IMG/VR virus record: IMGVR_UViG_3300045999_008113
Coordinates: 1 to 26,838 of that record
Length of the DNA stretch: 26,838 bases
Direction: 5' to 3' (one strand)
Source: a virus
In this document: one piece after another, positions 12,053 through 17,322 of the stretch
Position numbering within the stretch: position 1 is the first letter of the stretch
Layout of the letters: each line of letters starts with the position of its first letter
Translations under genes and position numbers: made by a program
The notes under the pieces: generated by a model
What the model was told of the DNA's origin: nothing
What the model saw: only the letters and a program-made list of their open reading frames with translations
Database searches by the model: none

Positions 12053-12568
12053 TCACTTTGTAACCAACTGTTCCATCAACGCGCGCAAGTCCTCAATGTC
12101 GGACTCGCTGATGTTGTTCGCACGCGCTAGCTCCTCGCCTTGTTCCAGCCACGCGCGCGGCGTTAGTGTCGTGCAGCCGATTTTCACCGCACCCCCTGGC
12201 TTTAGCGATGGAGCGAATCGGCTGCCGTAGCCGCTGCCGTCGCCGCTGCCGCATCCGTCGCCGCTGCCGTTGTAGCCGTCGCCGCTGCCGTCGCCGCTGC
12301 CGTTGTAGCCGTCGCCGCTGCCGCTGCCGCTGCCGTAGTAGCCGTCGCCGCTGCCGCATCCGTCGCCGCTGCCGTTGTAGCCGTCGCCGCTGCCGTCGCC
12401 GCTGCCGTTGTAGCCGTCGCCGCTGCCGCTGCCGCTGCCGTTGTAGCCGTCGCCGCTGCCGCTGCCGCTGCCGTAGTAGCCGTCGCCGCTGCCGCTGCCG
12501 TAGCCGCTGCCGCTACCAATGCCGCTACCAATGCCGTAGCCGCTGCCGTAGCCGTAGCCTAAGTTCAC
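12053..12568 (-). CDS. Gly-X (GSGDGY) repeat protein
   Basis: Residues about 4-118 are an unbroken Gly-X dipeptide repeat in which X is S, D, Y, N, C or I; a 35-codon higher-order unit occurs twice (105-bp period, second copy from about 12356). After the repeats, a normal C-terminal domain of about 50 residues follows (GGAVKIGCTTLTPRAWLEQG then a helical LEQGEELARANN and ESDIEDLRALMEQL). The D/N-rich Gly repeats recall calcium-binding or flexible spacer regions. The GTG at 12568 is favoured: it overlaps the previous stop as GTGA and has GGAGGG 7 nt upstream, while an ATG five codons earlier has its SD too close. It follows the gene at 12565-12918. Confidence 0.72.
   Translation of the reverse strand: MNLGYGYGSGYGIGSGIGSGSGYGSGSGDGYYGSGSGSGDGYNGSGSGSGDGYNGSGDGSGDGYNGSGDGCGSGDGYYGSGSGSGDGYNGSGDGSGDGYNGSGDGCGSGDGSGYGSRFAPSLKPGGAVKIGCTTLTPRAWLEQGEELARANNISESDIEDLRALMEQLVTK
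12210..12560. repeat. GC-rich hexanucleotide-based coding repeat, 105-bp unit
   Basis: The DNA is a long run of GCCGCT/GCCGTC/GCCGTA-type hexamers that encode Gly-X pairs on the minus strand. A larger unit beginning at GCATCC recurs 105 bp apart (about 12251 and 12356). Such arrays expand and contract easily, so copy number may vary between isolates or assemblies. Confidence 0.8.
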
Positions 12569-12918
12569 GTCCTCGCCCTCCATTCCTCGAACGATTGCAA
12601 GTTTTTCAGCGCTGCATCGCTCAGCGGCAAGATCTCGCACACGTCGGTGTATCGCAAGCGCTTTGGCCTCACGGTCACCGACACGTGTCCGCTCTTGATT
12701 CCGTAGACGCTCACCTCGCTCAACTCGGTCGCCCCCTCCCAGCTCCAAATTCGACGGCACTCGTCGAGAACAACCCACCCAGAAGACGCCCCGTCGTTTA
12801 CCAGAATCCCAAAGTGCACCCCCTGGTCACGTCCACGCGTCAACACCCACTCGGGGCCCTTGGTCTTTGTCCTCGTAGCCTTTGCCTTCGTCGCTGTCTT
12901 CTTCACTGTCTTCGTCAT
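12565..12918 (-). CDS. Conserved phage protein (DUF6948-like), 117 aa
   Basis: After a lysine-rich N-terminus (about residues 1-20, KTVKKTATKAKATRTKTK), the core has VHFGILVND, the segment CRRIWSWEGATELSEVSVYG and SVTVRPKRLRYTDVCEILPL followed by a helix with SFEEW. This reads like the family I know as DUF6948, with a conserved RRIWxWxGAxxLxxLxxxG motif and a xLxDVxEIIPxT end. The family's role is unknown. The ATG at 12918 has AAGGAG 6 nt upstream and promoter 12937-12966 directly behind it, so it leads the accessory operon. The DUF number is from memory. Confidence 0.75.
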   Translation of the reverse strand: MTKTVKKTATKAKATRTKTKGPEWVLTRGRDQGVHFGILVNDGASSGWVVLDECRRIWSWEGATELSEVSVYGIKSGHVSVTVRPKRLRYTDVCEILPLSDAALKNLQSFEEWRART

Positions 12919-12975: not shown

Positions 12976-14292
12976 TTACGCCGCACGTTCCGCGTCTTCA
13001 TACCGCGTCATCGGCCCGTTCCACCACACGCTAACAACCCCCGTCCTTCCGCCGCGGTTCTTCGCTACAATCAACTGAGCCTGGCCGCATCCCTCGTTAT
13101 CTTCGCTGGACTGGTCGCGATGCGGAAATACGATAACGTCTGCGTCTGCCTCAATTTGGCCAGACTCGCGCAGGTCCGACATGTTGGGTAACCTCCCCTC
13201 CTGCTCGCTCCTTCGGCTCAACTGGGCCACCATTACGCTCGTCGCCCCCAACTCCTTAGCCAAGAGCTTCCCGGCCTTTGACACGCCAGCCACTTCTTGC
13301 TCACGCGTCGAGGAACGGCTTCCAACGACGAGACCAAGGTAATCCGTAACAAATACAGCATGTTGGCCATGTTTCACATGTTTCGAATGCCAACTGCGCA
13401 CCGCAGCCTGGTACTTGTCCAGGTTCATCGAGCGGTCACACACGTAAAGCGGGATTCCAGCCACTTTGGACGCAGCTGAACTGATTCTCTGCCAGTCTCC
13501 CAGCCCCAAATCTCCTTTACCCATCGCGGTTGCGGGCACGTTGGCGAACCCTGACAGCAGCCGCTCTACCTGCTCTTGCACGGTCATTTCCAGACTCAGC
13601 AGCAGACATGGCGCCTTCTGCACCAGCGCCATGTGCGTGATGACCTGCAACGCGTAAGCCGATTTGCCGCCGCCCGGACGAGCCGCGACGACGACCTGCT
13701 GCCCAGGCCGGTAACCGCCGATTGCGTCATCGTAGGCACATATGCCAGTACGCAAGCCAGCGACCACGCCGCCCTCGACTCGCATACGTGCTCGTTCCTC
13801 GATAGCCTCCAGGGCCGTATGGAGCGCCTCCGAAAGCGCCACTGGCTCAGCCTGCCCAGGCGTCTCGATTCCCAGTACAGCGGCACGATGCTCGCCCAGG
13901 ATGCGCTCAGGGTCGGAACCGGGAGTTTGCAGCTCCTGGGACGCTTGAGAGCAAAATAAAGCCAGACGCCTTGCAAGCGCCGTTTTCCTCACGATAGCTC
14001 CGAGAGCCCGCGGAGACTCGAAACTCGCGTCCTGGGCCCAGCCAAGAAGCGTGGCGATGCTTTGCGGGTCTGTCGTGTGACCGCCAAGTACCTCACGCAG
14101 CGAAATTGGGGTCACGTCACACCCCCGCCTACGCAGTTCGCCAATCGACGCCCAGGCCGCTCTGGCCAACGGGAGCTCAAACTCCTCGGCGCCGACCGCT
14201 GCTTCATCCTGGGCCTGGGGGCGAACGAACGCCAGGCCGACGAGAGCACGTTCAGCTGGCGGGTTCGACACGGGCGTAACGCGGTCAGACAT
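12976..14292 (-). CDS. dnaB: Replicative DNA helicase, DnaB family
   Basis: A 438-residue hexameric 5'-3' helicase. Residues 10-140 form the helical N-terminal domain (NPPAERALVGLAF, the usual DnaB opening 'PxAExxLLG'). A linker precedes the RecA-like core: GLRTGICAYDDAIGGYRPGQ, Walker A ARPGGGKS (about 204-211), LLLSLEM with the catalytic Glu at about 235, Walker B-type VFVTDYLGL (about 310-318), a VSKAGKLLAKELG helix, VAQLSR and DLRESGQIEADADVI. All motifs are intact. The ATG has GGGAG 7 nt upstream and overlaps the end of the initiator-like gene by 8 nt, a lambda O-P-like or phage initiator-helicase pair. A homopolymer of seven T and the next promoter follow directly. Confidence 0.95.
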   Translation of the reverse strand: MSDRVTPVSNPPAERALVGLAFVRPQAQDEAAVGAEEFELPLARAAWASIGELRRRGCDVTPISLREVLGGHTTDPQSIATLLGWAQDASFESPRALGAIVRKTALARRLALFCSQASQELQTPGSDPERILGEHRAAVLGIETPGQAEPVALSEALHTALEAIEERARMRVEGGVVAGLRTGICAYDDAIGGYRPGQQVVVAARPGGGKSAYALQVITHMALVQKAPCLLLSLEMTVQEQVERLLSGFANVPATAMGKGDLGLGDWQRISSAASKVAGIPLYVCDRSMNLDKYQAAVRSWHSKHVKHGQHAVFVTDYLGLVVGSRSSTREQEVAGVSKAGKLLAKELGATSVMVAQLSRRSEQEGRLPNMSDLRESGQIEADADVIVFPHRDQSSEDNEGCGQAQLIVAKNRGGRTGVVSVWWNGPMTRYEDAERAA

Positions 14293-15148
14293 TGCCCGGC
14301 TCCCACTTGCCAGGAACGAACGACTTGCGCGGCTCCGGGTTCAGCAACCGCAACGGAGGGGGCGTCGGCCTGTTTGCCTGCTGCGGCTTCTGGGCGGGTG
14401 GGGGATTCTCCCAGCGGCGGTTTTGAATCCACCGATGCGCCCCGGGGAAGTACGCTTCCTCGGTGTTGGCTACCCATGCCGGCAGAGCCGAAAGAATCGC
14501 CTTGAGCGTCTCAGGGTCCTCGCAGCCCTGCTTCTTCCAGGCCGTGGCGAAGGCTGACTTGCCGGACCTGGAACGGCTCAAAGCCGGGAGGGAATTCCAG
14601 ACGCGTTCAGCGTCGGGGGAGAGCGAGGGCAATTTGCGCTTTCGTGGTTTCGAGGATTCGCCAGAATCCGACATATCTTGATCCAGATCCAGATCCAGAT
14701 CCAGATCCAGATCCAGATCAGGCGCGAGGGTCTCGCGAGGGTCTCGCGAGGGTCTCGCGAGGGTTTCTGTAACTACTTGATTTTGTTCAGTTTCGGGCGC
14801 AGGGATTCGTGGTTTACTGGGCTTGTCCACTTTTTGGTGCTTTCCCCAGTTGCGAATCTCGAAATACGACTGCCCCCTTACCTCGTAAATGGATACGAAG
14901 CGTGTTTCGACAAGCTCGCGAAGGGCTCGCGAGGCTTTCGCGAATGTCTCGCGAGGGTTGTTCTGGTCGCGCTCCATTTCATAGCGCCACACGTTGGTTG
15001 CGATGAAGGCGACTGATGCCCTTCCCCTGCCGTAGTCGTCTGCCATGAGAATCAGCCCTATAGACAGAACGCGAGCCGCATCTGATGTCCCTGCCAGCAC
15101 TTCATCTTCCAGCCACTCCGGTTTCACTGAGCGAATCCTCCCCATCAT
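14285..15148 (-). CDS. Replication initiator-like protein (winged helix)
   Basis: A 287-residue protein just upstream of DnaB. The first 110 residues (MMGRIRSVKPEWLEDEVLAG, then VWRYEMERDQNN, a helix-turn-helix with ASRALRELVETRFVSIYEV and YFEIRNWGKHQKVDKP) match the N-terminal domain of many phage replication proteins ('RxRxIKPEFxxSExL...LPDxxGR'). A low-complexity linker with Leu-Asp repeats follows (about 140-155), then a C-terminal helical domain with a WIQNRRWENP tail, the DnaT/DnaD-like layout that loads the helicase. The DNA holds two arrays of 11-bp repeats, so this gene probably contains the origin it acts on. The start overlaps the previous stop (ATGATG), with GAGGAG 8 nt upstream. 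Confidence 0.82.
   Translation of the reverse strand: MMGRIRSVKPEWLEDEVLAGTSDAARVLSIGLILMADDYGRGRASVAFIATNVWRYEMERDQNNPRETFAKASRALRELVETRFVSIYEVRGQSYFEIRNWGKHQKVDKPSKPRIPAPETEQNQVVTETLARPSRDPRETLAPDLDLDLDLDLDLDQDMSDSGESSKPRKRKLPSLSPDAERVWNSLPALSRSRSGKSAFATAWKKQGCEDPETLKAILSALPAWVANTEEAYFPGAHRWIQNRRWENPPPAQKPQQANRPTPPPLRLLNPEPRKSFVPGKWEPGNV
14681..14719. repeat. Hexanucleotide tandem repeat (ATCCAG)6
   Basis: Six perfect copies of ATCCAG plus a partial one encode Leu-Asp pairs in the linker of the initiator. It directly abuts the 11-bp repeat array and may vary in length. Confidence 0.9.
14721..14764. repeat. 11-bp iteron array I, four copies (candidate origin)
   Basis: Four consecutive copies of CTCGCGAGGGT with 11-bp period (14721-14731 degenerate, then three perfect copies to 14764). 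The period is not a multiple of three, so each copy is read in a different frame and the repeat is not caused by protein repetition. An AT-richer stretch (about 14765-14795) follows immediately, the arrangement of an iteron-type origin. Confidence 0.8.
14915..14958. repeat. 11-bp iteron array II, four degenerate copies
   Basis: Four copies with exactly 11-bp period: CTCGCGAAGGG, CTCGCGAGGCT, TTCGCGAATGT, CTCGCGAGGGT. They carry the same unit as array I, about 150 bp away in the same gene, and overlap codons of the winged-helix domain. Confidence 0.75.
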
Positions 15149-15951
15149 GACAACGACTCCTCGACGCGGCGAATAAATCTCCTGTAAGAGTTGGTCCTCT
15201 TGGCCACGTCGACCATGTGGCCTATGTCGGCACCATTGGCGACTAGATTATCCAAGTGCTCAATGACTAGGTATGGCTCTGGTATTCTTGGGCAGCGATT
15301 CCTCAAAATGCCGCGTATGTAGTACAGCTTCCGCGCGGTATCGTCGCCCTCGCTCTTCTCAATTACGCAGGCGTACCTGCCAACGCATTCAAAGAATTCG
15401 GTAAGGCTTTCTTCTGTCGCTGCGCCATCCTTGTCCCTTTTGATCTTGACGCTCGCCTCCTCTATGGCCTGAAGCAAAGTTCCAGTCTCAAATCTCTTTG
15501 CCCATTCACGCACGGTCCCTACGCCGCTTTCGCTGACCTTGCATGACGGGGCAAGGTGTCCGTTGATGTTGCTTACGATCGCTTTAACCTTGTCGTTCTC
15601 AAGCTCAAGCAGGCCATTTCGCCAGTCAATCATCATTTCAAGCTGGGCCCGCCGCTCGTTCAATTCTTCCAGCTGCGCCCTTTGCCGTGACAGCACTGAA
15701 TTGTCATCGAGTTCGCGTGCCCCCTTTCCAAGGTTGCACTCGGAACAAGACGTAATCAGGTTCAATAGGTCATTGTCGCCCTTCTTCGCAACCGGCTTTA
15801 TGTGGTCAACATGAAGCGTCACCTCAGGTGACTTTCCCCCACAGTATTGGCACGTAAACGAGTCGCGCTTGAACACCTCAAACCTGAGCTTCCCGCCAAT
15901 CGGCTTCCTTTCACTCACTACGCTCTCGTAACGCCCCTTGCTCACTCGCAT
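15145..15951 (-). CDS. HNH endonuclease-domain protein, 268 aa
   Basis: Residues about 15-80 form an HNH nuclease: LRFEVFKRDSFTCQYCG with the first Cys pair, LHVDHIKPVAKKG with the catalytic His, then NLITSCSECNLGKGAREL with the second Cys pair. A charged coiled coil follows (QRAQLEELNERRAQLEMM, about 85-105) and then a helical C-terminal domain that I cannot name. Standalone homing enzymes are usually shorter, and the gene sits in line within the replication operon, coupled to the initiator by overlap, so a replication or genome-processing role is as likely as homing. The start at 15951 has GAGGAG upstream; the longer frame would overlap the previous gene. Confidence 0.82.
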   Translation of the reverse strand: MRVSKGRYESVVSERKPIGGKLRFEVFKRDSFTCQYCGGKSPEVTLHVDHIKPVAKKGDNDLLNLITSCSECNLGKGARELDDNSVLSRQRAQLEELNERRAQLEMMIDWRNGLLELENDKVKAIVSNINGHLAPSCKVSESGVGTVREWAKRFETGTLLQAIEEASVKIKRDKDGAATEESLTEFFECVGRYACVIEKSEGDDTARKLYYIRGILRNRCPRIPEPYLVIEHLDNLVANGADIGHMVDVAKRTNSYRRFIRRVEESLS

Positions 15952-15953
15952 GA

Positions 15954-16190
15954 CTACTCCTCCTCCGTGAGCTTCTCGCACCATTCCAGGTGTGGCACGA
16001 GCGCCACAATCGAGCCGTTGACCATCACTGCCCAATGCGGTTCGTCTACCCGCTTCGATGCGAATCCGCCCAAACAGGGCATGGTCACATAGTCACCTGC
16101 GTGCACGTATCTCACTGACACGATTTGGTCATCGTCGTGAGCTTTCTTCGTCTGCTCGTTTCCACGGTCTCGGGATTTCGATTGGCTCAT
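15954..16190 (-). CDS. Hypothetical small protein, 78 aa
   Basis: A hydrophilic N-terminus (SQSKSRDRGNEQTKKAHDDDQ) is followed by a beta-rich core (VSVRYVHAGDYVTMPCLGG, HWAVMVNGSIVALVP) and an acidic end (LEWCEKLTEEE). The core may be a small barrel. It overlaps the gene before it by 62 nt; the start is uncertain between ATG at 16199 and at 16190. The later one is given because GGAG lies 9 nt before it. Stop to next start is 2 nt, so it is coupled to the HNH gene. Function unknown. Confidence 0.6.
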   Translation of the reverse strand: MSQSKSRDRGNEQTKKAHDDDQIVSVRYVHAGDYVTMPCLGGFASKRVDEPHWAVMVNGSIVALVPHLEWCEKLTEEE

Positions 16191-16377
16191 TTCGGTCATC
16201 TCCGTCAAGTCTCCCCCATGGGTCCGGCTCACTTGAGCGCATTGTTACGCGGTAGGTCTTACCGTCCGAACCCGTTACGTACTGTCCGATCAGTTTGTCG
16301 CCCTTCGCCGCCTTGCCAGCCCGTTCGTTGGCCTGGTCCGGCGGCTCGAAGCGCTCGTCAAATAGCGAGACTGTCAA
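16129..16377 (-). CDS. Hypothetical small protein, 82 aa, TTG start
   Basis: The product is hydrophilic (SLFDERFEPPDQANERAGK, GDKLIGQYVTGSDGKTYRVT, then a proline/arginine-rich tail). The middle may be a small beta segment. The apparent start is TTG at 16377, within the end of the upstream gene, with only a weak SD, so the N-terminus is uncertain. It overlaps the preceding gene by 20 nt and the following by 62 nt, unusual even for this compact genome. No function is proposed. Confidence 0.5.
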   Translation of the reverse strand: MTVSLFDERFEPPDQANERAGKAAKGDKLIGQYVTGSDGKTYRVTMRSSEPDPWGRLDGDDRNEPIEIPRPWKRADEESSRR

Positions 16378-17068
16378 CTCGCTTTACCGCCATGGCTTCG
16401 TCGGCAATGCGCTTGGCGATTGCTTCGAGCTTAGGGTCATGAGCGCACTTGTAAACGAACGCTCTTGGGCGCGGTAGGTTCATCGTCTCCCCGGCGTCGT
16501 GCGGCGTTATCCCGTACACCAGGCAAATGGCGCGTACCGCTACCGCCCTTGCGTTCGTAACCTTTGCGGTAGAACGCTGGAAGCCCTCATAGGCCATTGC
16601 CTGCTCTGACACTCCGAATTCCTCGCACGCCGCCCTGATTATGTTTTCTATGCCGCCAGCCAGCACAATGGCGTTGCGCTTGGCGACGCTGGCCCCCCAC
16701 AACTGGGAGGAAATGTCATCGACCACTCGCATAAGGTCCGGTGTACATCCGACCCTCGCAACGTGGTCCATTGCGTTCTTGTAGCACTTGTACCCAAGTC
16801 TCCGCGCCGCGCTCGCAAGGTTCCCGTTGTCGTGTCTACGCATGAGGTAGAGCGCAACGGCCCGAGCTTGCACAATCGTGCGTACCTTCCTCGGCGAGCG
16901 GAGCAGCTTTCGCGGCAAGTTGAACGCCTCGCATACCGCCTTCTCGATAAGCGCCGGTCTGTGGTCGAGCGACAATGCGCTATCGATCGCACCGTCTATC
17001 CCAAGGCCAGCGAGTAAGCCGTCTGCCACAGACGACAACACATGCTCCGAGACTAATTCGGCGCGCAT
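16358..17068 (-). CDS. Protein with two DnaA domain-IV-like DNA-binding modules
   Basis: A 236-residue protein. Residues about 41-115 (IEKAVCEAFNLPRKLLRSPR, VRTIVQARAVALYLMRRH, LASAARRLGYKCYKNAMDHV) match the DnaA C-terminal domain: basic loop, helix with xxARxxAxYLxR, then a helix-turn-helix ending xxGxxxxxAxxHV. Residues about 139-222 repeat the outline (IENIIRAACEEFGVSEQAM, KVTNARAVAVRAICLVYG, a proline-rich loop and a final helix). There is no AAA+ domain. The sequence therefore suggests a DNA-binding factor that could recognise DnaA-box-like sites or the phage's own repeats and help replication start or copy control. The ATG at 17068 has GGGAGG 7 nt upstream. Confidence 0.68.
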   Translation of the reverse strand: MRAELVSEHVLSSVADGLLAGLGIDGAIDSALSLDHRPALIEKAVCEAFNLPRKLLRSPRKVRTIVQARAVALYLMRRHDNGNLASAARRLGYKCYKNAMDHVARVGCTPDLMRVVDDISSQLWGASVAKRNAIVLAGGIENIIRAACEEFGVSEQAMAYEGFQRSTAKVTNARAVAVRAICLVYGITPHDAGETMNLPRPRAFVYKCAHDPKLEAIAKRIADEAMAVKRVDSLAI

Positions 17069-17322
17069 TGACGGGCCTCCCTGAGTGCGTTCTTGACCAT
17101 GCTCCTCCCAAGCTCTTCCAGGGCCTCCGAGCAAAGCGCCATTTCGGACATGAGCTCGTCTCGGAACTTAGGCATGTCGCCTTCATCCACCGCTGTGACC
17201 GCGTCTGCCAGCGCGCCACAAAGAGCATCCACGTTCTCGTAATTGCGCAAGACCGCCTGCCGCTGCAAATCCTTGCGAATACGCACTGCAATCGATACGA
17301 ACAGCGCAGACTTAGACGTCAT
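17053..17322 (-). CDS. Helical hypothetical protein, 89 aa
   Basis: The sequence is mostly helical (SALFVSIAVRIRKDLQRQAV, VDALCGALADAVTAVDEG, KFRDELMSEMALCSEALEEL). It reads as a small helical bundle with no motif that I recognise. The ATG overlaps the preceding stop as ATGA and its end overlaps the following gene by 16 nt. It is one of the small genes upstream of the DnaA-like protein in the replication operon. Confidence 0.65.
   Translation of the reverse strand: MTSKSALFVSIAVRIRKDLQRQAVLRNYENVDALCGALADAVTAVDEGDMPKFRDELMSEMALCSEALEELGRSMVKNALREARQCAPN

Follow-up and report, generated by a model that had tools for sequence, protein, structure and literature searches.

Two arrays of 11-bp repeats inside a phage initiator gene: a candidate replication origin shared across an initiator family

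An initiator gene and its neighbours

The window, that is, the whole stretch of DNA analysed here, is a 26.8-kb fragment (26,838 nt) from an uncultivated virus. One of its genes had been proposed in a preliminary description to encode a winged-helix initiator-like protein directly upstream of DnaB. Both parts of this proposal were supported, as the PHROG matches and an AlphaFold2 model of the product agree and the overlapping gene downstream encodes a DnaB-like helicase (Table 1). In a profile search, the window protein matched PHROG 2149 with an E value of 6e-27 and PHROG 1408 with 3e-25, and all 52 aligned family sequences matched the same two PHROGs. Pfam gave no match for the window protein at E values up to 0.1, and a profile of the family's N-terminal part found none among PDB sequences.

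The AlphaFold2 model was built from 52 sequences of the window and the related loci. It predicts a winged-helix domain at residues about 10–104 (pLDDT mostly above 90), a disordered linker of low pLDDT at residues about 123–165, and then the C-terminal part. Within the predicted winged helix, helix H3 (residues 65–81) occupies the position of the recognition helix. The best structural match of this domain was a riboflavin kinase/regulator (Z 8.2; Foldseek/VIA); the matches were to generic winged helices only, and we drew no structural family assignment from them.

By pairwise search, a DnaB homologue was found directly downstream of the initiator gene in 18 other relatives. When ten further relatives were scanned, the neighbour was a DnaC-like loader in four, a DnaB-like helicase in two, and a primase or primase/helicase in two. 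In phage HK639, a CII-like gene and then one small gene precede the family member HK639_54 (Table 1), and a P-like helicase loader comes directly after it. HK639_54 thus occupies the position of lambda O. Its 11-bp periodicity is weak, and its linker region contains a repeat of 21 bp.

Several other features of the surroundings were noted. Directly upstream of the initiator gene lies an HNH endonuclease gene (15145–16035), part of which shares ~70% DNA identity with the HNH gene carried by Pseudomonas phage JBD44. The product of 16358–17134 is a phage protein in which one stretch was recognised as the helix-turn-helix of DnaA domain IV (Bac_DnaA_C, E 2e-13); it matched no PHROG family. A scan for DnaA boxes (TTWTNCACA) found none in the window, and hence no such box for this protein to bind there. 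A 241-aa protein encoded at 12053–12778 consists mostly of Gly-Ser-Gly-Asp-Tyr repeats, with DNA periods of 33 and 105 bp, and had no PHROG match. An Rfam scan of 12.5–17.5 kb of the window gave no matches. The nearest relatives in bacterial assemblies were in Sandaracinus and Kofleriaceae MAGs, a hint that the window's phage may infect myxobacteria.

Table 1. Positions of the genes and repeats discussed, in the window unless another record is named
Feature	Position	Strand	Description
DnaB-like replicative helicase gene	12976..14292	-	directly downstream of the initiator gene, 8-bp overlap; DnaB_C E 1.5e-60, PHROG 19
Initiator gene	14285..15148	-	287 aa; matches to PHROG 2149 and PHROG 1408 'replication initiation protein'; AlphaFold2 model
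Short tandem repeat	14680..14719	-	GATCTG x6.7 on coding strand, touches array I; TRF score 80; 6-bp repeat equalled in 0/2000 synonymous shuffles; family pattern
Array I (site B on coding strand)	14721..14764	.	four 11-bp iterons, ACCCTCGCGAG on coding strand; codons of the disordered linker
Array II (site A on coding strand)	14915..14958	.	four 11-bp iterons, TCGCGA core; codons of predicted H3 (residues 65-81)
HK639_54 (phage HK639)	L202:1585-2448		annotated 'hypothetical protein'; family profile match E 1e-21

Repeats in the window gene and among its relatives

The two four-copy arrays of an 11-bp unit reported in the preliminary description were confirmed at the positions given there. Array I consists of one degenerate unit, GGCGCGAGGGT (two mismatches), and three exact copies of CTCGCGAGGGT, and was also called by TRF. 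The units of array II carry 2, 1, 3 and 0 mismatches, in that order. Read along the coding strand, the first of the two is array II, referred to as site A (gene nt about 190–234); array I, ~160 bp away, is site B (about 385–428). That site A encodes the predicted recognition helix was not part of the preliminary description. Site B, together with the short repeats that adjoin it, encodes the linker of the model. The window contains 15 copies of TCGCGA where 16.5 are expected, so that it is the spacing of the cores, not their count, that is significant. All seven closely spaced copies lie within the two arrays, and the other eight, elsewhere in the window, are isolated singles. At 14742–14762, the palindromic iterons are also picked up as a hairpin resembling a terminator on the plus strand, antisense to the gene; this is probably a by-product of the iteron palindrome.

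We compared the gene with synonymous shuffles of itself in which protein and codon usage were held exactly fixed. The 11-bp periodicity score of the window gene was 32, which none of 2000 shuffles reached (maximum 21). Array II alone was weaker and was equalled by 14 of the 2000; we accept it as real because the same site is conserved among relatives, as described below. Applied to lambda O as a positive control, the test picked out the known iterons only, and lambda P as a negative control gave nothing. In the relatives, iteron starts were spread about equally over the three codon phases (167/166/142), which indicates that the constraint acts on DNA and not on protein. These results uphold the earlier statement that the repeats do not stem from protein repetition.

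Relatives were gathered by protein only, and each of 75 non-redundant genes was compared with 100 of its own synonymous shuffles. The 11-bp periodicity exceeded all 100 shuffles in 42 of them; after period 11 came its harmonic 22 and then, as the next non-harmonic peak, period 7 (20 genes). By region, the 11-bp signal was significant at gene nt 140–265 in 28 of 69 genes and at nt 320–470 in 40 of 69, compared with 0, 0 and 1 of 69 in three other regions (about 1 expected by chance). Four genes were significant at site A and not at site B. When TCGCGA iterons of the relatives were mapped onto the window protein, they started at residues 57–83 or 122–141 and nowhere else. The arrays are thus not confined to the window: many relatives that encode this initiator have them too, at the same two places. 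About 40% of the relatives had no significant 11-bp periodicity; some of these carried other cores or periods of about 21 bp, and in others nothing was detectable.

The association was also seen when the protein was left out of the search. We searched 2.9 million viral contigs for the pattern of three TCGCGAG spaced 11 bp apart and obtained 71 contigs, of which 67 contained a gene of the family and 65 had the array within it. With 21 specified bases, very few chance matches would be anticipated; this is our own estimate, as the scan itself carries no expectation. A survey of 20 phage stretches, each of 20 kb, gave 29 arrays, every one of them within the initiator gene. The exceptions in the contig scan comprised a fragment at a contig edge (L130), an array without a recognised gene (L163), one distant from the family gene (L167), one beginning 60–82 nt ahead of the assigned gene start (L162), one within a different protein (L171) and one that is intergenic (L120:3855–3910, four CTCGCGAG palindromes at 11-bp spacing). 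No initiator of the present family was found in the L120 stretch. In L171 (7077–8588), GAACAA-like 6-bp repeats come after TCGCGAGTCAG 11-bp repeats; this is the same architecture, in a protein that lies outside the family and has no PHROG match, and convergence in another initiator is possible.

Sites A and B match each other within a genome. Not every relative has TCGCGA cores: the core is CTCTGGAG-like in L019, CCGAGGAC in L080 and CTCAAGAG in phage Ramsey, and within each of these genomes related cores occur at both sites. Sites A and B shared 4.46 8-mers when taken from the same genome and 2.08 when taken from different genomes (z 8.8); in control regions of the same genes, z was about 1 or less. 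Genomes without TCGCGA at site A still gave a z of 6.9. Since the match within genomes exceeds that between genomes, the two sites behave as expected of sites that serve one genome-specific protein.

Beside array I, the window carries a 6-bp tandem repeat (Table 1) that was missing from the preliminary description and whose score lay beyond all 2000 synonymous shuffles. Among the 91 relatives with a TCGCG chain, 82 have a short tandem repeat directly after site B. The unit is 8 bp long in 33, 7 bp in 25, 6 bp in 18, and 4, 5 or 9 bp in six, most of these lengths not being multiples of three. The units resemble GGAACAGG, GATCAGG, GACCTCC, GACCTAC or GAAACA, and GATCTG in the window. The coding strand is poor in T at the short repeat (11.3% compared with 15.4% gene-wide; Wilcoxon p about 1e-7). 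We regard the GATCTG repeat as a candidate strand-opening or loading element. In another relative (L010:4408–4505), the 7-mer ACGACCA occurs in fourteen perfect copies inside the initiator gene, running through all three frames.

The AT-richer stretch that had been described after array I is present in the window, where one 30-nt bin reaches 0.63 AT, but it is not a feature of the family, as the AT content at this place in the relatives is 0.385 compared with a gene mean of 0.369 (p = 0.15). A GC-skew switch at the candidate origin was sought and not seen in the window, in the Mycobacterium phages Bernal13 and Butters, or in the average over 20 phage stretches. We treat GC skew as uninformative for mosaic temperate phages.

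A probable origin within the gene and other readings of the repeats

It is very probable that the initiator gene contains the phage's own theta-type replication origin, since two repeat sites, with shorter repeats adjoining one of them, are found at matching positions of this gene in many diverse viruses. The candidate origin put forward in the preliminary description is thereby supported by direct observation of the sites inside an initiator gene, their constraint at the DNA level, their recurrence, the matching of A with B, and synteny.

We infer that the gene's own winged helix binds the sites, with opening, helicase loading and a division of labour between A and B to follow. The winged-helix domain would contact the 11-bp iterons from a single face of the helix. 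Together with the adjoining short T-poor repeats, site B would form the core, where wrapping may open the duplex and expose the repeats as single strand. DnaB, encoded by the adjacent gene, could then be recruited by the linker and C-terminal part; in other phages the recruited partner would be a DnaC-like loader, a lambda-P-like loader or a primase. Site A would act as an auxiliary array that either aids assembly or limits re-initiation through pairing with site B. In a refinement, rather than an alternative, the origin would comprise only site B and the short repeats, site A being a separate control by handcuffing or titration, like the inc iterons of plasmids. The short repeats come after B, and B is present more often than A (40 compared with 28 of 69 genes); against this, four genes are significant at A and not at B, and the sequences do not separate the two versions. 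We give the refinement an even chance.

Other functions, or none, might explain repeats in this gene. They could be coding repeats or products of polymerase slippage without a function at the DNA level, and it is true that the window hexamers translate to an Asp-Leu run and that the linker is disordered. However, none of the periods 11, 8 and 7 is divisible by three and codon phase is uniform, and the occurrence of the repeats at the same positions, with matching inside each genome, across diverged phages already contradicts this explanation, which we consider extremely improbable. Packaging, partition or recombination sites might also have come to lie in the gene by happenstance. Direct-repeat arrays are found at parS and pac sites too. 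In mycobacteriophage Miko, five direct repeats lie at parS beside repA (PMC7157519). Yet 65 of 71 contigs have the array inside the initiator gene, and no partition or terminase gene was found adjoining that gene, which makes this possibility very improbable.

Arrays of this kind resemble protein-binding sites in general, and they could be operators used by the initiator, or by some other phage protein, to repress transcription of its own gene or of genes downstream, with no origin involved. Autoregulation is frequent among winged-helix proteins and common for iteron initiators. The arrays, however, lie 190–430 nt within the coding sequence and not at a promoter, none being predicted near them in the window, and a regulator has no need of the short repeats conserved beside site B. 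Moreover, it is in the corresponding part of the gene that the origins of lambda O and pSK41 Rep lie (PMC5043065, PMC5703833). We therefore regard operators as unlikely, and an origin inside the initiator gene remains our preferred reading.

More tentatively, a broad family of phage initiators may share a three-part origin that has not been described before. It would consist of an array in the recognition-helix codons, an array in the linker codons, and a strand-asymmetric tandem repeat of 4–9 bp (mostly 6–8 bp) that replaces an A+T-rich unwinding element as the site of opening or helicase loading. If this proposal is true, iterons in the recognition-helix codons would make binding specificity and its target one inseparable piece of DNA, and the family would offer a natural system for initiator–site co-evolution in which the site encodes the DNA-reading helix. 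It would also raise the question of GC-rich phages opening their origins by way of repeated sequence rather than A+T content. The combination of 11-bp iterons and short T-poor repeats within the initiator gene amounts to a strict, testable rule. By this rule, sequence alone predicts where replication should start in many temperate phages, among them well-studied mycobacteriophages in which the gene of this family is annotated only as 'replication initiation' or 'hypothetical' protein.

Comparison with known systems

The preliminary description had likened the locus to the origin of lambda. In lambda O, iterons lie in the middle of the gene and the adjacent DNA is opened (PMC5043065, PMC7466680); lambda has a single array of 18–19-bp inverted-repeat iterons and, with it, 40 bp of A+T-rich DNA (PMC5043065; L201 annotation). 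The likeness to lambda ori and its Stx phage relatives stands in so far as multiple iterons again lie in the middle of an initiator gene that neighbours a helicase-loading gene, as HK639 shows at the O position. It ends at the repeats, which in the window family are 11-bp direct units in two arrays, not inverted repeats of 18–19 bp in one, and at the neighbouring DNA, where short T-poor repeats take the place of an A+T-rich unwinding region that is weak in the window and not kept in relatives. The family profile did not match lambda O, and the O-like PHROG 345 was matched by one of the 52 members and not by the window protein.

In the RepA_N initiator of plasmid pSK41, the winged-helix N-terminal domain of Rep binds DNA, four Rep boxes lie centrally in rep, and the origin encodes the linker (PMC5703833). 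The window gene likewise has a predicted winged-helix N-terminus, and site B lies centrally in the gene in codons of the low-pLDDT linker; this agreement concerns position alone. By contrast, the 11-bp units of the window are GC-rich, where Rep boxes are A+T-centred, and the window gene also has a second array, in the codons of the predicted recognition helix, and adjoining short tandem repeats. RepA_N (PF06970) was absent among the families matched by the 52 members at E values up to 0.01, with no match in the window protein. The plasmid initiator domains 4pql and 4pt7 gave Z scores of 6.7–7.0 with the predicted winged helix, among many generic winged helices. As the window system fails to match either lambda O or RepA_N by sequence, we did not file it under either family.

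A fragment carrying repA of mycobacteriophage Miko sufficed for plasmid replication. Wetzel and colleagues suspected that an origin lies within repA or immediately upstream of it, but in the region from the tail genes to parS-L they saw no repeats (PMC7157519). We considered Miko RepA as an experimentally tested member of the family and rejected it (E 0.12 to the family). In the open-access papers that we searched, we found no description of the two arrays, the iterons in recognition-helix codons or the adjoining short repeats of the window family.

DnaA-trios and the DnaD recognition element are strand-specific, single-strand repeats beside double-strand sites (PMC10797057, PMC10201434). The window family resembles them, as well as the iteron plasmids RK2, F and P1, in placing putative double-strand sites beside short repeated motifs that may serve single-strand binding (PMC10797057, PMC10201434). 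The repeats of known DNA unwinding elements, however, are A+T-rich 13-mers or 3-mers, whereas those of the window family are mostly 6–8 bp long, not A+T-rich and intragenic; unlike the DnaA-type elements of oriC, the window is without DnaA boxes. An origin within an initiator gene is already known as a kind from lambda O and the RepA_N protein of pSK41.
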